Positions 52,581 through 64,000 of a stretch of 64,000 bases of DNA are shown piece after piece. Each line of letters opens with the position of its first letter. Positions within the stretch are counted from its first letter, which is position 1. A program made the position numbers and the translations under genes. The stretch is from Nocardioides caldifontis (GTDB taxonomy: Bacteria; Actinomycetota; Actinomycetes; Propionibacteriales; Nocardioidaceae): the NCBI RefSeq assembly GCF_008087345.1, contig NZ_ML701737.1:310001-374000 (forward strand), in the 5' to 3' direction. Under the pieces are notes generated by a model. It did not search any database. It saw nothing but the letters and a program-made list of their open reading frames with translations, and was not told the DNA's origin.

Positions 52581-54932
52581 TCAGCGGCTCGCCCAGGCCG
52601 CCGGCCCGCTGACCTCGCCGATCGCGTCGCTGAACGGCTCGGGCTGCGCCCCGGGAGCCAGCTCGAGCACCATCAGCTGCCCCGTCTCGGCGTCCTCGTC
52701 GGCGGCGAGCTCGAACACCACGCGGCTCCCGTCCGGCGACCAGGAGGGGTCCCGCGCGACGCCGCTGTCGGGGGTGACGAGGAGGCAGGTCGGCACCTGG
52801 GTGACCGGGTCGGGCTCGGGCTCGGTGGGGCAGCCGAGGCTCTCCGCGGTGCCGTCGTCGGCCACCATCCGGAGGGTGCCGTCGCTGCGGTAGAGGATCC
52901 GCCCGTCGACGGGCGACCCCACGGTGTCCTCCGCCTGGCCGGAGGTCAGCGCGACCTCCTCGCCGGGGTCCGCCGGCGTCGGGTCGCGGAAGACGTGCAC
53001 GCCGGGTGCCTCGTGGTTGGGCCCGAAGGTGACTGCCAGCGCGCCGGTGCCGGTGAAGCTCGGGTTGCCGAGCTCGACCTGGTCGAGCCCGGTCATCGGC
53101 GTGAGGCCGGTGATCACCCCGTCCTCGCCGGCCGTCCCCTGGAACACCTGGCGTTCCGGTCCCTCGCCGAGCCGGCAGAGCACGAGGACCCGCCCTTCGG
53201 TGCCGGGGTCCCACGCGGGGCGGTTCACGCAGGAGGCGCCGGGCGGGTCCTCAGGGACGGCGGGCACCACCTCGCCGCTGGCGAGCTCGAGCACCTCCAT
53301 CCGCCATGCGTCGCGCGAGTCGCCGGAGCGGAAGTACACCAGCCGGCGGTCGGGCGAGAGCGACGGGAGGTCGGGCGCGACGCCCGCCTCCGTGAGCGGG
53401 TCGCGGGTCCCGTCGCCCACGGCGTAGAGGCGGACACCGTCGCCGAGGTCGAGGGGCACGACGAGCGTCGACTCCGGCAGGGCCTCCACCGTCTCCTCGG
53501 TGCCGCCGCCCTCGGTGGTCCCGCCACCGGACTCCTCCGTGTCGCGCAGCGCCCACCACAGGGCGGCCACCACGACGACCACGGCGAGCGCCCCGGCGCC
53601 GGCCACCCACGGCAGCCGGCCGCGGAGCCACGGCGGGCCCCCACCGCCGCCCGGTGCGGGCGGTGGCGGGTGGGCAACCGGTGGCGGCGTGCTCGGGGCC
53701 GTCCTGGGCAGCTCGGCGGTCGCGCTCTCCGAGACGGCTCGGGCCGGAGCGGCGACGGGAGCGGTGGGTGCCACGGGTGCGGCGGCCGCGGTGGCGGTCC
53801 GGCCGGCGTCGCGGGTCGGCCAGCTGGTCGTGGGTGCGGGCGCCGCGGAGGGTGCCGGCGCAGGAGCGGCGCCTGCCGTCGCCTGGTACTGCACCGCGCC
53901 GAGCGCGATGTCGTGCTTGGGGTGGGTGTCCATCGCGGTCCGGACGCCGAGCTCGCTCTGGAGGAGCTGGCTGACCAGCGGGATCCGTGAGCTGCCGCCG
54001 ACCAGCACCGCCGCGGCCAGCTGGTCGCCGGTGGTCCCCGACGAACGCAGCGCCCGTTGCGTCGCTGCGAGCGTCTCCCGCAGCGCCGGCGAGATCAGCT
54101 CCTCGAGCTCGGTCCTCGTGAGCCGCACCGACGTCGTCACCCCCGGCAGCGCCACCGGCACCACCGCGTCGACGTCGTTCGACAGCGCCTCCTTGGCCTC
54201 CACGCAGTCGCGGCGCAGCCGGGTCAGCCCGGCGGTGACCTCCGGCTCCTCCGGGTCGAGCCCCGCCACCCGGTCTCCGAGCAGCCCGAGCACGTGACGG
54301 AAGACCGCCTCGTCGAAGTCGATGCCTCCGAGGTGCTCGACCCCGTCCGGGGTCCCGACGATCCCGAACCCCACCTCGCGCCGCTCGAGCACGCAGACGT
54401 CGAAGGTGCCGCCGCCGAGGTCGTAGACGACCACCCGCGCGCCCGGCTCCAGCGGCGCCCGGGACGCGTACTGCGTCGCCGCGGCCTCGGGCTCCGTGCA
54501 CGTGACCACCGCCGGAAGGTCCGCCAACGTGCCGACCTGCGCGAACAGCTCCTGCTTGAAGCCGCCCCAGTTCGCCGGCCGCGTCAGCACGACCTCCCCG
54601 GGACCACCACCCTGCCGTTCCGACGCCGTCGCGACGACCCACCGCAGCAACGTCGCCGTCAGCGCCTGCGGGGAGAACGGCTGTCCGCCGACCAGCACCG
54701 GCACGGTGTCGCCCAACCGGCGCTTGAACTCACGGACGACACGTCCGGGCTCCGTCGCACTCCGTCGCTCGGCGGCCTCGCCGCACAGCCACGTGCCGTC
54801 CTCGGCCAGGAACAGCACCGACGGCACCTGCAGGGCCCGGTTCCCCAGCCCCACCATGCGGGGCCCGCTGCCGTCGTCGGTGGCGGCCGCGGTGAAGGTG
54901 GTCCCCAGGTCGATACCCAGCCGGTACCCCAT
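52581..54932 (-). CDS. Hsp70-like ATPase fused through a membrane helix to an extracytoplasmic TolB-like beta-propeller
   Basis: 783 residues from the ATG at 54930-54932. Residues 1-350 are an Hsp70/actin-type ATPase with phosphate loops (GIDLGTTFTAAATDD, VVVYDLGGGTFDVCV) and the adenosine motif AAVLVGGSSRIPLV. No substrate-binding domain follows. Instead, an Ala/Pro linker (355-435), one membrane helix (about 440-462) and a C-terminal domain with TolB/WD-like repeats (LSPDRRLVYFRSGD, PAWDPGTEGRVLVLC, PSWSPDGSRVVFEL) follow. The ATPase would be cytoplasmic and the propeller outside. Function unknown. Divergent from the hydrolase gene at 55014 across 81 bp. Confidence 0.85.
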   Translation of the reverse strand: MGYRLGIDLGTTFTAAATDDGSGPRMVGLGNRALQVPSVLFLAEDGTWLCGEAAERRSATEPGRVVREFKRRLGDTVPVLVGGQPFSPQALTATLLRWVVATASERQGGGPGEVVLTRPANWGGFKQELFAQVGTLADLPAVVTCTEPEAAATQYASRAPLEPGARVVVYDLGGGTFDVCVLERREVGFGIVGTPDGVEHLGGIDFDEAVFRHVLGLLGDRVAGLDPEEPEVTAGLTRLRRDCVEAKEALSNDVDAVVPVALPGVTTSVRLTRTELEELISPALRETLAATQRALRSSGTTGDQLAAAVLVGGSSRIPLVSQLLQSELGVRTAMDTHPKHDIALGAVQYQATAGAAPAPAPSAAPAPTTSWPTRDAGRTATAAAAPVAPTAPVAAPARAVSESATAELPRTAPSTPPPVAHPPPPAPGGGGGPPWLRGRLPWVAGAGALAVVVVVAALWWALRDTEESGGGTTEGGGTEETVEALPESTLVVPLDLGDGVRLYAVGDGTRDPLTEAGVAPDLPSLSPDRRLVYFRSGDSRDAWRMEVLELASGEVVPAVPEDPPGASCVNRPAWDPGTEGRVLVLCRLGEGPERQVFQGTAGEDGVITGLTPMTGLDQVELGNPSFTGTGALAVTFGPNHEAPGVHVFRDPTPADPGEEVALTSGQAEDTVGSPVDGRILYRSDGTLRMVADDGTAESLGCPTEPEPDPVTQVPTCLLVTPDSGVARDPSWSPDGSRVVFELAADEDAETGQLMVLELAPGAQPEPFSDAIGEVSGPAAWASR

Positions 54933-55013: not shown

Positions 55014-56909
55014 ATGAAGCTCGACATCCAGCAGATCTACGAGGCGGCGAGGGCCGCCGGGTTCACCCCCGACCAGGCGACGACCTGGACCGCGATCGCG
55101 CTCGCCGAGTCCGGGGGCGAGACGGGGGCGCTGAACGACGTCGGCGAGCACTCGGTCGGGCTGTGGCAGATCAACGTCGCCTCGGATGTCCGCTCCAACA
55201 CGTGGGGCGACCTCACCGACCCCTACGTGAACGCGCGTGCGGCGTACGAGATCTCCCACCAGGGCACGGACATGCGGCCCTGGACCACGACGCACGACTC
55301 CAACGAGGGCACCGCGCACGACTACCGCACCTACCTCGCGCAGGTCTCCGCCGTCACGGGGTACACCGGCGACCCGCGGGGCGTCGACGGGTACGGCGCC
55401 CCGCTCCCCCCGCCGCTACCCCCGTCGGGGCCGACGGACGACACGGCGACGGTGCCGGCGTACGACCAGATCGACACCGGCATGGACCCGGCCGGCCAGC
55501 TCGACAGCGACTCCGACGGGCTCACCGACAGCTTCGAGCGGATGGCCGGCAGCAGCCCCGACGTCGCCGACACCGACCAGGACGGGCTCTCCGACGCGCG
55601 GGAGGCGGTGGTGACGGGCACCGACGCCCTGCTCGCCGACACCGACGGCGACCTGCTCACCGACTCGACCGAGGAGACGCTGGGCACCAGCGGGACGACC
55701 TGGGACACCGACTCCGACGGCGCCTCGGACGGCATCGAGGTCAAGCACCGCAGCAACCCGCTGCTCGCCGAGAACGGCACCGTGCCGCAGCAGGACACGG
55801 TGGCGCCGCCGGTGCAGACGACGTCGACGATGCAGACCGCGATGGCGGGCTCGACGATGCCGGGTTCGACGATGCCGGGCTCCACGATGGTGCAGAGCGG
55901 CACCCTGCCGACCGGCACCGCATCCACCCTCGCCGACCAGTTCGTCGCGCTCGCCCAGGCACAGAAGGGCGACAGCTACGTCTTCGGGACGGAGGCGGAC
56001 CTCGACGACGCCGACCCGGACTCCTTCGACTGCTCGGAGCTGACGCAGTGGGCGGCCGAACAGGTGGGCGTGACGATCCCCGACGGCGCGATGTACCAGT
56101 ACCTCGAGCTCAAGGACCAGGGACAGCTGATGTCCGTCGACGAGGCGCTGCGGACCAAGGGCGCGCTGCTCTTCTACTTCTCCGAGGAGCCGACACCTGG
56201 TGGCAGCAGGCCGGGCACCGCGCACGTCGCGATCAGCCTGGGTGACGGCCGGACGATCGAGGCACGCGGCACGTCGTACGGCGTGAACGAGTTCCCGGCC
56301 GAGGGCAGGTTCAACTACGCCGGCGTGATCCCGGAGATGGCCGGCTCGCCGGTCGGCGACCTCGCCCCGACCGCGTTCGACGCGACCGCCACGACGACGG
56401 GCCCGGACGCCGACCAGGACGGGCTTTCCGACGTGTTCGAGCAGATGGTCGGGCTCGACCCCATGTCGGCGGACAGCGACGGCGACGGCATCGACGACGC
56501 GACCGAGCAGCTCGGCGGCGGCACGACCACGACGACGGTCGCCGCGCCACCGATGAGCGAGCAGGAGGTCGCCGCAGCCCTTGCCCAGCAAGGGCTCGAC
56601 GCCAAGGGCGACGAGGACGACGACGGGCTGAGCAACCGCTACGAGGTCGCGCACCGGCTCGACCCGACGCTCGCCGACACCGACTCCGACGGGCTGAGCG
56701 ACAGCACCGAGGACATGCTCGGCACCAGCGGGACCTCGGTCGACACCGACGCCGACGGGCTCACCGACTTCCTCGAGCAGGAGCTCGGCACCGACCCGCT
56801 GACCCGGGGCACGCCCCTCGACCGTTGGGGTCTCGGCGCGGACGAGGACCTGGCCGAACCGCCCGGTCAAGAGCCCGTCGAGACCATGGACGCCGACGGC
56901 GACCTCTAG
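55014..56909 (+). CDS. Multi-domain cell-wall hydrolase: lysozyme-like + NlpC/P60 with thrombospondin type 3 calcium repeats
   Basis: 631 residues, no signal peptide. Residues 1-110 are lysozyme/transglycosylase-like (AIALAESGGE with Glu32; HSVGLWQINV). Four TSP3 repeats of D-x-D-x-DG type lie at about 163-240 (DSDSDGLTD, DTDQDGLSD, DTDGDLLTD, DTDSDGASD). An NlpC/P60 peptidase domain follows (about 300-440; DSFDCSELTQW with Cys340, GTAHVAISLG with His404), then five more TSP3 repeats (about 463-585). A GSTMP tandem lies at 279-291. It should cut both glycan and peptide parts of peptidoglycan, with calcium rigidifying the stalks. Lack of an export signal and position beside a contractile injection system suggest it is a tail lysin or payload, which is inference. 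Confidence 0.85.
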   Translation: MKLDIQQIYEAARAAGFTPDQATTWTAIALAESGGETGALNDVGEHSVGLWQINVASDVRSNTWGDLTDPYVNARAAYEISHQGTDMRPWTTTHDSNEGTAHDYRTYLAQVSAVTGYTGDPRGVDGYGAPLPPPLPPSGPTDDTATVPAYDQIDTGMDPAGQLDSDSDGLTDSFERMAGSSPDVADTDQDGLSDAREAVVTGTDALLADTDGDLLTDSTEETLGTSGTTWDTDSDGASDGIEVKHRSNPLLAENGTVPQQDTVAPPVQTTSTMQTAMAGSTMPGSTMPGSTMVQSGTLPTGTASTLADQFVALAQAQKGDSYVFGTEADLDDADPDSFDCSELTQWAAEQVGVTIPDGAMYQYLELKDQGQLMSVDEALRTKGALLFYFSEEPTPGGSRPGTAHVAISLGDGRTIEARGTSYGVNEFPAEGRFNYAGVIPEMAGSPVGDLAPTAFDATATTTGPDADQDGLSDVFEQMVGLDPMSADSDGDGIDDATEQLGGGTTTTTVAAPPMSEQEVAAALAQQGLDAKGDEDDDGLSNRYEVAHRLDPTLADTDSDGLSDSTEDMLGTSGTSVDTDADGLTDFLEQELGTDPLTRGTPLDRWGLGADEDLAEPPGQEPVETMDADGDL

Positions 56910-56948: not shown

Positions 56949-59756
56949 ATGCCCGCGGTCCAGGACCACAGCCACCACCCGGACGCCACCGGGCTGGAGC
57001 GGCGACGGCTCCTGGAGCCGCTGCTCGACCCGGACGGGCCCGGCGCGATCGTGGTGATGGCCCCTCCGGGGTCGGGGAAGACCACCCTGCTGGCCAGCGC
57101 CGCGGCTGCCGCGGAGGCCGACGGGCAGGCGACGGCGTGGTGCCCGGTGGAGGTCGAGGACCGGGTCGCGGCCACCTTCCTGACCCGGCTCGCCGGCGGG
57201 CTCGCCCGTGCCTGCGGGGCTCCGCTCGGCAGCCCTGCGGGGGTGCCGGAGCTGCTCGACGCGGTGGCCGGCACGCGCAGGCCGGTCACCGTGTACGTCG
57301 ACGACGCCCACGAGCTCGAGGGATCCCCGGCGCAGGAGCACCTCGAGGCGCTCGTGCGGCGCCGCGCAGCAGGGGTGCGGGTCGTGGTCGGCACCCGCCG
57401 GCCGCTCCGGCTCAACACTCCCCGGATGGTCGTCTCCGGCGAGCTGCTCGAGCTCGACGGCGAGGCGCTGCGGTTCCGCTCGTGGGAGGTCGAGGAGCTC
57501 TTCCGCATGGTGTACGGCGAGCCGCTGTCCCCGGAAGGAGCGGCAGCCCTGACCCGGCGTACCGGAGGGTGGGCCGCCGGGCTCAAGCTCTTCCACCTCG
57601 CGACCGCCGGGAAGTCCCCCCTCGAGCGGGAGCGCGCGGTCGCGGAGCTCGGGGGCCGGTCGCGGCTGCTGCGCAGCTACCTCACCCGGACCGTCCTCGA
57701 CGAGCTCGACCCGGGGCTGCGCGGCTTCCTGCTCACCACCAGCACCCTCGGGACGCTCACCGCCCCGCTCTGCGACGCGCTGCTGGAGAGGGACGGCTCC
57801 GCTGCCGTCCTCGCAGAGTTGTCCACACGACAATTTTTCATCGTCGCTGCTGAGGACGGCTCGACGTTCCACTACCACCAGGTGATGCAGACGCTCCTCG
57901 AAGGGCTCCTCGTGGAAGAGGTCGGCATCGACGCGGCCCACCGGGTCTACGCCCGCAGCGGGGCGGTGCTCGAGGCAGCCGGTCTGGCGTCCGAGGCGGT
58001 GCGCGCCTACGCGCTGGCGGAGGACAACGCGTCGGTGGCCCGGCTGCTCCAGCAGTCCGGGGCGGCGCTCGCGGCCGACCACATCGAGGCGCTCCCGTGG
58101 CCGACGGACGACCCGTGGCTGGCGCTGGCACGCGCGCGACGGTTGCACCGCCGAGGTGCGCTCTCGGAGTCGATGGCGGCCTTCCGCGCCGCCGAACGGC
58201 TCCTCGACGACGCCGACTTCCGCCGCCGGTGCCAGGAGGAGCGGGCGGAGGTGGCGCTCTGGGCAGACCCGGGTGCCGTCGTCGGCGGGGCCGCTCACCG
58301 GGGCGGGCGGTTCTCGCTCGGCGAAGCGCTGCGCCGGACGACGAGGCGGGTCGACCACGAGGAGCAGCCGCGGCTCCCGCGGCTCGCACGCGCGGTCGCG
58401 GCGGCGTTGGCCGGCGACCTCCCCGGGGCCCGCGCGGAGCTCTCCGCCGCGCGGGGGCTGTCGGACACCGAGCGGCTGGTGGCCGCCCTTCTGGCCTCGC
58501 TCCTGGACGCGTCGGACACCGCCGGGGCCTCCGACCCGTCCGGGGCGGAGCCGCGGCTGCTGGCGCGGCTCGAGGAGATCGTGCTGACCGCCGACGTCCA
58601 GGACCAGCCGTGGCTGGCCCGGCTGGCGCGCGGCGTCCAGGCGACCGCGCTCGCCGCCACCACCGACCAGCCGTGGCGGGTCCAGTCGTGCGCAGCGGTC
58701 GTCGAGGAGTGCGAGGACGCCGGCGACCGCTGGGGCGCGCTGCTCCTCGCGGGCGGGCTCGGGTGGGCCCTGGCGTGCCGCGGCGACGAGGGCGGGGCGC
58801 AGCGCTGGCTGGACGGTGCGGCCGAGACGGCGACCTCGCTCGGCGCCCCGGTGCTGGGCGCGTGGGCCGCGCTCCTCGGCGCGGCGGTCACGCGGGGCGG
58901 CCCGGACGCCGGGGCGCGCCAGGCCAGGGCGCGCCGGCTCGCACGGGGCTGCGGGGTGGCCGGCGCCGAAGCGCTCGTCGAACGGCTCGTGACCCGCCCT
59001 GAGCCGACACCCCCGCCCGCGACAGCCGCCACCCTCACCACGATCCGGTGCCTGGGTGCGTTCGAGATCGAGGTCGAGGGCGCCGTCGTGCCCGTCGACG
59101 CGCTGCGCCCGCTCCCCCGTTCGCTGCTGATGGTGCTCGCGCTCCGGCACGGACACGACGTGCACCGCGAGGACCTCATCGAGGCGCTCTGGCCGCAGAG
59201 CACCGTGGAGGAGGCGTCCCACCGGCTGCACGCGGCCGCCTCGAGCGTGCGCCGCTGCCTCGCCGACGCGGGAGCCGCGGACGCCGTGCTGCGCCGGGGC
59301 AACGGCTACCGGCTCGAGCTGCCCGGCGCCGAGCTCGACGTCACCGCCTTCGAGGACGCCGCCCGCGCGACGCAACGCCACCTCGCCGACCACGAGCCCG
59401 AGGCCGCGCTCGCCGTCGGGCTGGCGGCTCTGGAGCTCTACCGCGGCGACCTGGTGCCGGAGGCAGGTCCCCAGGAGTGGGTCGTCGAGGAGCGGGCCCG
59501 GCTCCGGCTCGCCGCCGCCACCACGGCCTGCACCGCCGGCCGGGTGGCCCTCGGGCTCGGCCGGCTCGAGCAGGCGCTGGACATCGCCCACCGCTCCACC
59601 GTGCTCGACCCGCTGCGCGACTCGGCCTGGGCACTGCTCGGCGAGGTGCAGACCATGATGGGCGACGTGACGGCCGCGGCGGCCACCAGGTCCCGGCACG
59701 CCCGGGTGCAGGCCGAGACGTCCGCCGTACCTCGTGGTGGGCCCGCCCGTCGTTGA
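56949..59756 (+). CDS. Large STAND ATPase regulator with SARP-type DNA-binding and BTAD domain
   Basis: 935 residues. The N-terminal MalT-like ATPase module has Walker A APPGSGKTTLL (38-48) and Walker B VTVYVDDAHEL. Winged-helix and TPR-like helical repeats fill about 270-690. From about 697 there is an OmpR-like DNA-binding domain (IRCLGAFEIEVEGAVVPVDA, RHGHDVHREDLIEALWPQ) and a bacterial transcriptional activator domain to about 925. It lies 39 bp after the hydrolase gene, probably cotranscribed, and converges on the baseplate genes, so it is a strong candidate regulator of the injection system. The stop codon is inside the first unit of a family A repeat array. Confidence 0.85.
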   Translation: MPAVQDHSHHPDATGLERRRLLEPLLDPDGPGAIVVMAPPGSGKTTLLASAAAAAEADGQATAWCPVEVEDRVAATFLTRLAGGLARACGAPLGSPAGVPELLDAVAGTRRPVTVYVDDAHELEGSPAQEHLEALVRRRAAGVRVVVGTRRPLRLNTPRMVVSGELLELDGEALRFRSWEVEELFRMVYGEPLSPEGAAALTRRTGGWAAGLKLFHLATAGKSPLERERAVAELGGRSRLLRSYLTRTVLDELDPGLRGFLLTTSTLGTLTAPLCDALLERDGSAAVLAELSTRQFFIVAAEDGSTFHYHQVMQTLLEGLLVEEVGIDAAHRVYARSGAVLEAAGLASEAVRAYALAEDNASVARLLQQSGAALAADHIEALPWPTDDPWLALARARRLHRRGALSESMAAFRAAERLLDDADFRRRCQEERAEVALWADPGAVVGGAAHRGGRFSLGEALRRTTRRVDHEEQPRLPRLARAVAAALAGDLPGARAELSAARGLSDTERLVAALLASLLDASDTAGASDPSGAEPRLLARLEEIVLTADVQDQPWLARLARGVQATALAATTDQPWRVQSCAAVVEECEDAGDRWGALLLAGGLGWALACRGDEGGAQRWLDGAAETATSLGAPVLGAWAALLGAAVTRGGPDAGARQARARRLARGCGVAGAEALVERLVTRPEPTPPPATAATLTTIRCLGAFEIEVEGAVVPVDALRPLPRSLLMVLALRHGHDVHREDLIEALWPQSTVEEASHRLHAAASSVRRCLADAGAADAVLRRGNGYRLELPGAELDVTAFEDAARATQRHLADHEPEAALAVGLAALELYRGDLVPEAGPQEWVVEERARLRLAAATTACTAGRVALGLGRLEQALDIAHRSTVLDPLRDSAWALLGEVQTMMGDVTAAAATRSRHARVQAETSAVPRGGPARR

Positions 59757-59875: not shown

Positions 59876-60418
59876 TCAGGGTTCGGGGAGGACCTCCACC
59901 CGGTGGACGACGTGGGCCGGCTTGAGGGAGGTCACCAGCGCCTCCAGCCGCCGCTCGTCCACCGTCGCACCGGCCGGGACGAACACCTGCACGACCAGCG
60001 CCTCCTGCGGCACCCCGGGTCGCGGCGCGTCCGGGTCGAGGGACCAGGAGGCACCACCGGTCTCGCGCACCTCGGTGCGGTAGCCGAAGACCGCCTCGAC
60101 GGCGAGCTCGACGCCGCGCCGGGTGCCTTGCCAGCCGTGCAGCCGGCTGGCGGCGTGCAGCACCTCCCGCTGGCGTACGGCGGACAGGTGGGCGTCGACC
60201 GGCATGCCGATCCAGTACGCCAACCACGGCAGGAGGTCGTCCGGGGTGGTCGCCACGTCGAGGTACGAGGGCATGTTGTCCAGGGTGCTGACCACCGGCG
60301 CGAGCACCTCGTCGAGCGCCCCGACGAACCGCTCCGTGAACGAGTCGCCCTGGTAGAGCCCCGGAAGGGTCGGCAGCAACGGGTGCGGCGTCGGCAGCCC
60401 CGGCAGCTCGCGGCGCAT
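59876..60418 (-). CDS. Contractile injection system tail protein (gpI/Afp12-like, TIGR02242 type)
   Basis: 180 residues from the ATG at 60416-60418, which overlaps the previous stop codon by one base. Motifs of the phage tail protein I/TIGR02242 family are present: LPGLYQGDSFTERFVGALDE, DLLPWLAYWIGMPVDAHLS and SRLHGWQGTRRGVELAVEAV. In phage and extracellular injection systems it is a baseplate wedge component. It is the last gene of the operon visible here. Confidence 0.88.
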   Translation of the reverse strand: MRRELPGLPTPHPLLPTLPGLYQGDSFTERFVGALDEVLAPVVSTLDNMPSYLDVATTPDDLLPWLAYWIGMPVDAHLSAVRQREVLHAASRLHGWQGTRRGVELAVEAVFGYRTEVRETGGASWSLDPDAPRPGVPQEALVVQVFVPAGATVDERRLEALVTSLKPAHVVHRVEVLPEP

Positions 60419-62364
60419 CACCGCACCCTGACCTGGTGCTCGTAGGAGAAGACCAGCCCGTTCTCCGGCAGGTCGAGCCGCTGCACCGGCTGCTCGCGTC
60501 GCCCGCTCACCGCGTCCGCGGGGAAGAGCGTCACCGAGATCTCCTGCGCCATGTCGACACCGGAGATCCGGGCCAGCGCGGCGTGCACCTCGTGGGACTG
60601 CACCGACCGGCCGAAGGGCCACCCGGTCCCGTCGGGGCCACCGGTGAGTGGGTCCAGGAGCCCGTACAGCGCCCGCAGCACGTCGTCGCGCACGAGGTCG
60701 GCGTCGTAACGCTCGCGCGACCGCACGTCCACGACGACGGTCAGCCCGACGTACACCGGTGGGGCGACCAGCAGCCGGGTGCCGACGAGCCGCCGCTCGT
60801 CGAGCGCCTCGCTGATCCGCTGCAACATCCCCTCGTCGGGGGTCAGGTCCGCCCGCCGGACGCGGCCGACGTCGTCGGTGACGACGTGCGGCACGACGAG
60901 GACCAGCACCCCCTCGCCGCCGTCGCCCTGGCGGCTCGGCGCGCAGTGCACGCGGGCTACCTCGGGCGCGACGTCGTGGGTCAGCTGGATGAAGTCGTCG
61001 GCGGTGACCGCGCGGCCGCGCGAGCGCAGCAGCATCGGGCCGCGGACCTTCGCCTCCTCGAGCGTCTCCGCGTCTGCACCACCCACCGCCGGTGCGCGGT
61101 TCTCGACCCGCGCGACGTAGGGGACGCTCGTCTTCAGCACCCGCACCTGGCCGGCGGTGACGTTGCCGCGGCGCCCGCCCCCGCTGCGGTACGACGACAC
61201 GGTGAGCGTCGCCTTCCGCGGCGGGACGGCCCCGAAGTGCTGGAGGGCCCCGTCCGCGCGGCGTACCGCGGGACCGAGCTGCACCTCCCCCGCGAACGCG
61301 TCGACTCGGTAGTGCAGGTCCTCCGGGCCGCTCTCGGCGAAGTGCGGCACCTCCTGCCACACCTGGACGTCGTCGCCGTCACGGACCTCGAGCGTGCCGG
61401 CGCGGTCGGCGGCGAGCACCGGACGGCGTTGCAGCGCGAACCGCTGGCCCGGGGTGCCGTCGGAGCGGCCGATCGTCTCCTCGTGGACGACCTCGGCGTG
61501 GATCATCGGCGCCGTCCCGCCGATCGTGAACGCAGTGATCCCCTGGATCCGCGGGGACGCGCTGTAGGTCGGCTGCCCCGGCAGCGCGTCGACGAGGCGG
61601 CAGCGCAGCCAGCCCGCGCGCTCGCGGGCGATGATCGAGGTCTGGTGCTCGTCGGGCACGTGGAGCACCACGTCGCCGTCCTTGTTGAACCCGCCGGTGT
61701 CGTCGTGGTCGAGCTCGCACGGGGTCCACCCGGCACCGGTCCACGCCTCCCACACCAGCGGCGGGCGGCGCGGGTCGACGCCGACCCCGGAGACCGTGCA
61801 GTCGAGCCGCAGCGTGACCGCGCAGGAGGGCACGGCGTTCGACAGCCCGACCAGCAGCGCGTCCCCCACGACCGGGGTGGCGGAGAAGGCCGGGAACCCC
61901 TGCTGTCCGAGCAGCGCAGGGGTGTGGTCGACCGGGTCGTCGCCGACCGGTGCCGAGCCGGCGCGCGCGAAGCTGCACGGCACGATCTCGAGGTCCCGCG
62001 TGGTCGTGAACACCACCGGGTCGTGGATGTCGGTGCGCGGGGTGGACACCTGCGTCTCGGCGCGGACCAGCACCGGCGCGGGCTGGGGTGCGGAGAGCCA
62101 GAACGTGACCCGGCCGCGGGCAGGGGACGGCGGCCTCAGCTCGACACCGATCATCTCGAGGAACTTGACGTAGTTGAGGTCCGGCACCCGGTTGAGCCGG
62201 TAGACCAGCTGGTCGACCATCTGCGCGAACGCCTCGATCAGCGTGACGCCCGGGTCGCTGACGTTGTGGTCGGTCCACTCGGGACAACGGTTCTGCACCA
62301 GCCGCTTGGCCTCGTCCACGAGCCCCTGGAACGTGCGGTCGTCGAGGTTCGGTGCCGGCAGCAT
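60418..62364 (-). CDS. Putative baseplate assembly protein (gpJ/Afp11-like, TIGR02243 type)
   Basis: 648 residues. The N-terminus NLDDRTFQGLVDEAKRLV and DPGVTLIEAFAQMVDQLVYR are hallmarks of actinobacterial and Afp-type baseplate J-like proteins. The middle forms a beta-rich insertion (about 90-400), and the C-terminal half is J-like (RSRGRAVTADDFIQLTHDVA, RLLVAPPVYVGLTVVVDVRS). It builds the wedge that ties the sheath to the spike. Overlaps the downstream tail gene by 1 bp, and is 1 bp from the gp25 gene. Confidence 0.9.
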   Translation of the reverse strand: MLPAPNLDDRTFQGLVDEAKRLVQNRCPEWTDHNVSDPGVTLIEAFAQMVDQLVYRLNRVPDLNYVKFLEMIGVELRPPSPARGRVTFWLSAPQPAPVLVRAETQVSTPRTDIHDPVVFTTTRDLEIVPCSFARAGSAPVGDDPVDHTPALLGQQGFPAFSATPVVGDALLVGLSNAVPSCAVTLRLDCTVSGVGVDPRRPPLVWEAWTGAGWTPCELDHDDTGGFNKDGDVVLHVPDEHQTSIIARERAGWLRCRLVDALPGQPTYSASPRIQGITAFTIGGTAPMIHAEVVHEETIGRSDGTPGQRFALQRRPVLAADRAGTLEVRDGDDVQVWQEVPHFAESGPEDLHYRVDAFAGEVQLGPAVRRADGALQHFGAVPPRKATLTVSSYRSGGGRRGNVTAGQVRVLKTSVPYVARVENRAPAVGGADAETLEEAKVRGPMLLRSRGRAVTADDFIQLTHDVAPEVARVHCAPSRQGDGGEGVLVLVVPHVVTDDVGRVRRADLTPDEGMLQRISEALDERRLVGTRLLVAPPVYVGLTVVVDVRSRERYDADLVRDDVLRALYGLLDPLTGGPDGTGWPFGRSVQSHEVHAALARISGVDMAQEISVTLFPADAVSGRREQPVQRLDLPENGLVFSYEHQVRVR

Positions 62365-62365
62365 G

Positions 62366-62815
62366 TCAGCGTCCTGTTCCGACGAGGGCGGGAGCCGCCT
62401 CCGCGTCCGGGACGGTCAGCTCGTGGTCCGGGATCGTGTAGAAGGGGAAGACGAGGTTGCGTGGGTCGTTGGAGTCGGCGATGACGTAGCTGACGTCGAC
62501 GTACAGCTTCCCGGACTCGATGGCGTCGAACGCGACCCCGACGTCCTGCACGGTGATGCGGGGCTCCCAGCGTTCGAGCGCCTCGCGGACGTCGTACGCG
62601 ATCTGCCCGGCGGTGGCGCCGTTCGCGGGGCCGAAGACGTGGTCGTGGATCCGGCAGCCGAACTCCGGCCGCATCGGGCGCTCGCCCCGGGCGGTGCCCA
62701 GGATGAGCCGGATCGCCTGCTCGATCTCCCGCTCGCGCACCACGAGGGCCACACCGCCGGTGGCGTCCGTGCCCACGGGGAAGGCCCAGCCGGCGCCGAC
62801 GAACTCGGGGTTCAT
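62366..62815 (-). CDS. GPW/gp25 family baseplate protein (Afp9-like)
   Basis: 149 residues. The gp25 core is seen: FVGAGWAFPVGTDATGGVAL, REREIEQAIRLILGTARGERPMRPEFGC (the conserved E-I-x-LGT-GERxMxPxFG core) and FDAIESGKLYVDVSYVI. In T4 and related particles this protein nucleates sheath polymerisation at the baseplate. 2 bp downstream of the PAAR gene. Confidence 0.92.
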   Translation of the reverse strand: MNPEFVGAGWAFPVGTDATGGVALVVREREIEQAIRLILGTARGERPMRPEFGCRIHDHVFGPANGATAGQIAYDVREALERWEPRITVQDVGVAFDAIESGKLYVDVSYVIADSNDPRNLVFPFYTIPDHELTVPDAEAAPALVGTGR

Positions 62816-63115: not shown

Positions 63116-64000
63116 CTAGTTGATCTTGACCAGCCCGGCGGACAGCGAGGCCACCGCGCCACCCTTGAGGTCCAGCTGTGAGCCGGTCTGCACCTTGACC
63201 GGGCCTCCCCCGCCGTCCACGGTCACGCCCTGCGTGGCCTTGAGCGAGATCTGGCCGCCCTTGAGGTCGAGCTTCGAGCTGCCGGCGTCGACGGTCACTC
63301 CTTTTGTTCCTTCGACAAGAACCGTGCCGTCGGAGTGCAGAGTGACCTTGGTGCCGGTCGCGTCCAGCTCGAGGCTGACCGTTCCACCCTTGCTCGTGAC
63401 GGTCACCCCCTCGGTCTTGCCGTCCTGGTCGTGCAGGTCGAGCCGGTGGCCGTTGCGGGAGACGAACGAGCGCCGGTTGACCGCGCCGGAGCCGCTGTCC
63501 ACCAACGTGGTCCCGGCCGTGTCCGGTCCGTCGACGCCGTTCCAGAGCCCACCCAGGACGTACGGGCGGCGCACGTCACCCTGCTCGAAGACGACGAGGA
63601 CCTCGTCGCCCACCTCCGGGAGGACCACGGCTCCGCGGTCCTTGCCGGCGCCGGCCTGCACCGTGCGGGCCCAGCCGCTGACGAAGTCGTCGGAGAGCCA
63701 CGGGAACGACAGCCTGACCCGGCCCAGCTGGTCGGGGTCCGCGACGTCGGTGACCACGCCGACGACGACCCCGGGTGGCGCCGTCGGGAGCGGCCCGCCT
63801 CCCTGGGTGAGCCCGAGCATGCTGCGGTCGTGGACCCCGGAGACGGCGAAGGAGGTGGTGTAGCCGGTGGCCGGGTCGAGCCGGTGGCGGGAGGTGGTGA
63901 CGGTGTACTTCCCGTCGAACGGCGCCCCAAGCCCGTCGAGGGTCACCGGCGTCCCGGCCCGCACCTTGGGGTTGCCGCGCGTGACCGCCTCGATCTCGGC
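63116..64000 (-). CDS. VgrG/gp5-like spike protein (Afp8-like), N-terminus outside window
   Basis: 295 residues to the stop at 63116; the frame stays open to the right window edge. The gp5 OB-fold is visible (VGVVTDVADPDQLGRVRLSF, PEVGDEVLVVFEQGDVRRPY, VLGGLWNG), followed by a C-terminal beta-prism of repeating strands (KVTLHSDGTVLVEGTKGVTV, SKLDLKGGQISLKATQGVTV). It trimerises into the spike that carries the PAAR tip. No extended effector domain is seen at the C-terminus. Sheath, tube and AAA ATPase genes are expected beyond the edge. Confidence 0.92.
   Translation of the reverse strand, partial: AEIEAVTRGNPKVRAGTPVTLDGLGAPFDGKYTVTTSRHRLDPATGYTTSFAVSGVHDRSMLGLTQGGGPLPTAPPGVVVGVVTDVADPDQLGRVRLSFPWLSDDFVSGWARTVQAGAGKDRGAVVLPEVGDEVLVVFEQGDVRRPYVLGGLWNGVDGPDTAGTTLVDSGSGAVNRRSFVSRNGHRLDLHDQDGKTEGVTVTSKGGTVSLELDATGTKVTLHSDGTVLVEGTKGVTVDAGSSKLDLKGGQISLKATQGVTVDGGGGPVKVQTGSQLDLKGGAVASLSAGLVKIN

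Follow-up and report, generated by a model that had tools for sequence, protein, structure and literature searches.

A predicted lysozyme and NlpC/P60 protein with TSP3 repeats that recurs at actinobacterial eCIS loci and is likely of phage tail-lysin descent

Contractile injection systems are widespread in actinobacteria, and how they pass the thick Gram-positive wall, whether from the outside or from the inside, is a standing question. The 64,000-nucleotide stretch of the Nocardioides caldifontis genome analysed here (the window; NZ_ML701737.1, positions 310,001 to 374,000) contains, beside the genes of such a system (eCIS), an open reading frame combining two peptidoglycan-directed domains with calcium-type repeats. 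We call it LYS, for eCIS-associated two-domain lysin. The initial annotation offered three roles for its product, i.e., a tail lysin, a lysis factor that releases particles, or a loaded toxin. As LYS tracks particular eCIS lineages it is a concrete gene for the wall-passage question, and it may be the means by which eCIS penetrate a thick wall or escape through it. Its parts are as follows:

55014..56909, plus strand: LYS, 631 aa, pI about 4.05
55041..55289, plus strand: SLT_3 lysozyme-like domain (aa 10-92), candidate catalytic E32 at 55107-55109
55503..55769, plus strand: TSP3 block 1, four calcium-type repeats (aa 164-252)
55932..56333, plus strand: predicted NlpC/P60 endopeptidase (aa 307-440), candidate triad C340 (56031), H404 (56223) and E416 (56259)
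56406..56807, plus strand: TSP3 block 2, five calcium-type repeats (aa 465-598)

The initial description of a lysozyme, an NlpC/P60 domain and nine TSP3 repeats in one protein without a signal peptide was confirmed by Pfam, motif counting and hydropathy. The Pfam matches all exceed the curated cut-offs: SLT_3 (PF18896) at aa 10-92 (E=2.9e-27; 95.4 bits against a cut-off of 27), NLPC_P60 (PF00877) at aa 320-425 (E=1.7e-08; 34.8 bits against 23) and TSP3_bac (PF18884; E=1.7e-12). The nine DxDxD...D repeats, starting at aa 164, 186, 209 and 231 and at aa 465, 487, 533, 555 and 577, are mostly spaced by 22-23 aa and fall into groups of four and five. The frame begins with ATG; inspection together with hydropathy revealed no signal peptide, and the hydropathy scan detected no hydrophobic segment along the whole protein. 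An in-frame extension upstream overlaps a divergent HSP70-like gene and is not leader-like. By inspection, the other 13 eCIS-linked members also have no leader ahead of the lysozyme domain and begin right at SLT_3. The hallmark of secreted autolysins, an N-terminal signal peptide, is thus absent from LYS and its relatives alike, and in being by prediction a cytosolic lysin LYS resembles the phage-type endolysins.

Membership of the SLT_3 family is supported by the profile score, by a lysozyme fold and by a conserved acidic residue, E32, which is invariant in 19/19 aligned SLT_3 rows. A model of the lysozyme domain alone (aa 1-130, built with 19 sequences) had a mean pLDDT of 91.5 and matched C-type lysozymes with Z 11.4 and 2.8 A rmsd over 106 residues. 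By inference from this model E32 terminates a helix equivalent to the catalytic-Glu helix of hen lysozyme; a PDB sequence search with the SLT_3 domain gave no matches. Membership of NlpC/P60 is likewise supported by the profile match and a Cys-His-third-residue triad, C340/H404/E416, invariant in 13/13 NlpC-type eCIS-linked members. The AlphaFold model of full-length LYS (mean pLDDT 61) gives no trustworthy domain arrangement. Foldseek searches with it found the NlpC/P60 structures SagA, RipB, RipA and the diffocin hub-hydrolase (chain 8v3w_H), and the RipA matches include C383, H432 and E444 mutant structures. Because the folds match known enzymes and the catalytic residues are invariant, both domains are probably active, and LYS would share with tail-associated lysins the possession of two peptidoglycan-cutting domains.

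Is the position of LYS beside an eCIS meaningful? The domain search across actinobacterial eCIS loci that had been proposed for this purpose was run on 293 genomes of the order and 394 of the class, with the TIGR02243 baseplate J protein as eCIS marker and a threshold of 1e-20 for the LYS query. All 14 members carrying SLT_3, a peptidase and TSP3 repeats (that of the window included) were found in eCIS-bearing genomes and within eCIS loci, 13 of them at 1.5-18.3 kb from baseplate J. In the order survey the eight LYS-positive genomes (again including the window's) all belong to the 34 eCIS-positive ones of 293 (hypergeometric p about 1.5e-8, kinship ignored), with LYS 1.5-4.1 kb from TIGR02243 in every case. 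The class survey gave seven (window's included) among 63 eCIS-positive genomes of 394 (p about 2e-6, kinship ignored); six of these are further members beyond the order set, five of them at 16.6-18.3 kb from the marker. The LYS gene of genome G547, in a split assembly, lies on a contig other than the marker's, where its neighbours are genes for the eCIS ATPase, sheath and tube. In family f21, of which 35 genomes were searched, the five LYS-positive genomes are all among the eight with an eCIS. One match in the class survey (G596) is to the NlpC domain only and lies in a contractile prophage, and other SLT_3 proteins, in G140, G153, G159 and G188 as well as a second one in G205, did not match the LYS query at 1e-20. 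Most surveyed eCIS-positive genomes have no LYS relative at the threshold used.

Placing LYS on a baseplate-J tree of 52 eCIS, 14 of them LYS-positive, requires three changes, and 0/500 shuffles were as low, on a quick tree in which G454 forms a long branch. In the first group, i.e., that of the order survey, LYS marks one end of the locus (G205 having the regulator in swapped order), and in f21 and G454 it occupies the opposite end. In the Kribbella genome G229, two eCIS belonging to different lineages are present (contigs C76 and C81), only one of which has LYS beside it. Owing to these three observations the link between LYS and eCIS exceeds an inherited neighbourhood, the independent events being few. 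A functional link to the eCIS is therefore strongly supported: the architecture recurred only with eCIS, no member has a recognisable signal peptide, and homologues lying mostly away from eCIS with secretion signals, the outcome named beforehand as speaking against the link, did not turn up. These results bear directly on the view that LYS is an ordinary autolysin located beside an eCIS by chance. NlpC/P60 and lysozyme domains are indeed frequent in actinobacterial wall remodelling enzymes, but the 14/14 linkage, the three changes on the eCIS tree and relatives without signal peptide make such a coincidence highly improbable.

The neighbourhood of LYS in the window is as follows:

52581..54932, minus strand: HSP70-like protein, one predicted TM segment, weak PD40/WD40-like match; divergent from LYS
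56949..59756, plus strand: AAA/BTAD (SARP/MalT-like) regulator, 39 bp downstream of LYS and in the same direction
59876..60418, minus strand: eCIS tail protein I (Tail_P2_I)
60418..62364, minus strand: eCIS baseplate J-like protein (TIGR02243; E=3.1e-153)
62366..62815, minus strand: eCIS gp25-like baseplate wedge
63116..64000, minus strand: VgrG-related hub/spike, running on to 64888 beyond the window

The regulator, which is probably co-transcribed with LYS, is convergent with the TailI, baseplate J, gp25 and VgrG genes. It is a recurrent gene of eCIS loci whether or not they contain LYS, and because it adjoins the last eCIS gene also in loci lacking LYS, the initial designation as an eCIS regulator was correct. 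A link of LYS to the regulator itself was considered and rejected: in f21 and G454 LYS is remote from the regulator, at the opposite end of the cluster, and the link is therefore to the eCIS. Beyond the window the eCIS extends to about 89.7 kb (window coordinates) with tubes, sheath, AAA ATPase, Pvc16_N and eCIS_core proteins, and this outer part also encodes a dynamin-like pair and a response-regulator-like protein. No lysin domain was found in the scanned 282-residue part of the VgrG-related hub/spike. The HSP70-like gene is present in nine of the 14 LYS-positive loci, i.e., all eight of the first group and G454, and was not seen in f21 or in the LYS-negative loci examined, an absence that is provisional as loci were fetched in part. 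Its product is a candidate eCIS accessory protein and may be a co-evolving partner.

The domain order SLT-TSP3-NlpC-TSP3, pointed out at the start as unusual, holds for eight members including that of the window. Five members, all from f21, lack TSP3 block 1 and have the plan SLT-NlpC-TSP3, and in G454 an unrelated M23 peptidase replaces NlpC/P60 while SLT_3 and TSP3 are kept (SLT-M23-TSP3); a second M23 variant was not found among five genomes searched in the order of G454. As G454 exchanges one peptidase for another, the pairing of a glycan cutter with a peptide cutter appears to be the conserved trait. Judged by sequence, all members share a predicted glycan cutter, a predicted peptide cutter and TSP3 repeats, and all are leaderless; such a composition suits a tool for opening the wall better than a binding protein.

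Where might such a tool come from? A search for close full-length relatives of LYS in phages and viral contigs was negative, and only single-domain or hub- or tape-measure-type matches were obtained. Among the nearest phage relatives of the lysozyme domain is gp119 of Rhodococcus phage E3, annotated as a baseplate protein, which like LYS has SLT_3 followed by NlpC/P60 in one protein and whose lysozyme region shares 38% identity with the LYS lysozyme across 145 alignment columns. Its gene lies between the tape measure and gpW/J/I. In contrast to LYS, gp119 is a phage virion gene product of 806 aa in which no TSP3 was found and in which about 220 N-terminal residues, hub-like by gene position, precede the lysozyme. 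The SLT_3-type entry lysozymes of Rhodococcus phages Toil and P19 are 39-40% identical to LYS (aa 3-95 for Toil and 3-116 for P19), and Toil is the top viral structural match; in both, however, the match covers the lysozyme alone, with no NlpC or TSP3 match. In viral contigs SLT_3 occurs within tape-measure-like proteins. In a contractile prophage, a protein in hub position (L130:9075-10409) ends in an NlpC/P60 domain that shares 50% identity with the LYS domain. The records of a Brevibacterium phage relative of the NlpC domain disagree, one naming it lysin A and another tape measure. The PHROG matches of LYS comprise four families of tail proteins, of which one is described as "with lysin activity", and a fifth family of unknown function. 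Because the phage relatives are mostly virion entry lysins, baseplate or tail proteins, descent of LYS from phage tail or entry lysins is likely on sequence grounds. SLT_3-like lysozyme matches were also found under genes annotated "glycosyltransferase" in phages Forthebois, WheeHeim and RickRoss, probably a misannotation.

There is precedent for such a pair of enzymes in a contractile machine. The hub-hydrolase CD1368 of diffocin joins a lytic transglycosylase to NlpC/P60 in a contractile tail that crosses a Gram-positive wall (PMC10996793). It resembles LYS in combining a glycan cutter with an NlpC/P60 endopeptidase, and differs in that it is fused to a gp27-like hub, that its glycan cutter has been likened to MltA and not to SLT_3, and that no TSP3 is described. 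Delivery by the machine is favoured, given that LYS has phage kin, that it is strictly linked to eCIS and that diffocin sets a precedent. We give a probability of roughly one half to the reading that LYS arose from a phage tail lysin, stands free of the hub as a lysin of the eCIS and gets to peptidoglycan via the injection machine. Observed for this reading are the domains, the conserved catalytic residues, the lack of a leader, the repeated eCIS linkage and the relatedness of the modules to virion lysins of phages. That the enzymes are active, that LYS associates with the particle, that calcium acts as a switch, and whether the wall cut belongs to the target or to the producer are inferred. 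LYS would be made and kept in the cytosol, lacking a signal peptide, with TSP3 repeats that are poorly structured at low calcium. Its enzymatic part, a predicted lysozyme-type enzyme and a predicted D,L-endopeptidase, has the build of an actinophage-tail entry-lysin cassette, but is not fused to the hub and is joined to acidic TSP3 arrays. It would get to peptidoglycan only by the injection machine, either borne on the particle or ejected when the eCIS fires. At the wall the TSP3 arrays would take up calcium and stiffen to arms, a switch suggested by TSP3 chemistry, and the two enzymes would cut the wall locally.

The position of the gene outside the baseplate operon and the missing hub domain argue against LYS being a fixed structural part of the tail. 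LYS starts at the lysozyme domain, is not fused to a hub or tape measure, and contains no hub, baseplate or known cargo-loading domain recognised by Pfam. It would act like a tail lysin, yet by sequence it lacks both the fusion and the tail-operon position typical of that class, as well as the eCIS_core domain of typical cargo. Of the three roles first proposed, tail or entry-lysin ancestry is favoured by the phage kin, whereas the missing hub domain and the missing eCIS_core/DUF4157 domain speak against a tail lysin and a loaded toxin in the strict sense; sequence by itself does not separate the three.

The LYS-positive loci also encode CisA-like membrane proteins, and the machine may therefore fire from inside, in which case an entry drill is not obviously needed. 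CisA is needed for firing in Streptomyces (PMC12237407), where the CIS is linked to regulated cell death (PMC10066040, PMC10020575, PMC12237407), and conventional eCIS are released by lysis of the producer (PMC12237407). It is possible that LYS instead builds up in the cytosol like an endolysin and cuts the producer's own wall after membrane failure, either freeing the particles or completing an eCIS-linked death, with no need for contact with the particle. The CisA-like proteins, implying firing from inside as in Streptomyces, the lysis-dependent release of conventional eCIS, the two catalytic domains without signal peptide and the position of the gene apart from the structural operon and next to a regulator would all fit. 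On the other hand, a simple hydropathy scan recognised no holin-like gene near LYS and Pfam no cell-wall-binding domain, parts for which an unrecognised gene or the TSP3 repeats could serve; the lysozyme's kin in phages are entry lysins of the virion or proteins of the tape-measure type, and most eCIS-positive relatives do without such a gene. We regard a lysis factor as possible and as the foremost alternative to machine delivery, coming close to it but somewhat less probable.

In the locus of the window, a TM protein at the far end (L069:14419-15099; window coordinates 84418-85098), whose C-terminal part is discoidin/F5-8C-like by eye and without a Pfam match, is a candidate CisA analogue. 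CisA-like Zn-ribbon/TM/discoidin proteins come after TailI in many LYS-negative loci. The idea that LYS replaces the CisA membrane anchor was rejected, as LYS-positive loci also encode CisA-like candidates elsewhere. Within the cluster another protein (L069:1000-2415; window coordinates 70999-72414) combines a zinc-ribbon, an Ig-like part, a TM segment and PASTA, the last of which may bind peptidoglycan.

It is also possible to view LYS as cargo that kills Gram-positive competitors after delivery into their wall space. Peptidoglycan hydrolysis is among the predicted activities of eCIS-associated toxins, an example being EAT10 of Pseudoalteromonas luteoviolacea (PMC8213781), which like LYS is an eCIS-associated predicted peptidoglycan hydrolase; it is, however, gammaproteobacterial. 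Small folded domains on thin TSP3 stretches could, moreover, fit the tube lumen. This is nevertheless unlikely. By sequence LYS does not belong to the DUF4157/eCIS_core type of cargo: Pfam finds no PF13699 domain in LYS and places it in a separate protein of the locus, there is no N-terminal leader before the enzyme, and no immunity gene is obvious. The locus furthermore holds more typical candidate cargo, namely a helix-rich protein of 1273 aa that lies directly upstream of the sheath and has two predicted TM segments (L069:2590-6411) and, near it, the eCIS_core (PF13699) protein (L069:8872-9642), which resemble the Sle1/Sle2 effector pair of Streptomyces lividans (PMC13277306). Like LYS, the Streptomyces CIS effectors (Sle1/Sle2, Tme, Sco4256-4258) and CisA are accessory proteins with genes inside or close to the cluster, some of them of phage-tail origin, and no lysozyme/NlpC/TSP3 protein is described among them in the literature searched.

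Returning to the eCIS-delivered lysin, it is tempting to speculate that the TSP3 repeats also arm it, i.e., that they keep the enzymes unfolded and harmless in the low-calcium cytosol, and that the protein takes on its folded, tethered and active form only after firing of the eCIS has brought it across the membrane to the calcium-rich side. The HSP70-like neighbour would then perhaps watch over the unfolded protein. We consider this elaboration rather doubtful; if true, LYS would be a holin-free way through a thick wall. More generally, an eCIS-delivered LYS would mean that eCIS can entrust a function of the phage tail-lysin type to an accessory protein that is separate and exchangeable. No description of an eCIS lysin of this build was found in the literature searched, a partial collection with few subscription journals and preprints.

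Two further open frames may be recorded. Between the tube genes, at window coordinates 66086-68227 on the minus strand, lies an open frame of about 714 aa that is proline/arginine-rich and repetitive, with a codon-position composition atypical of coding sequence. Elsewhere in the same genome a second TSP3-repeat protein (G000:C3:95880-97757) is located within long open frames of about 730-1100 codons.
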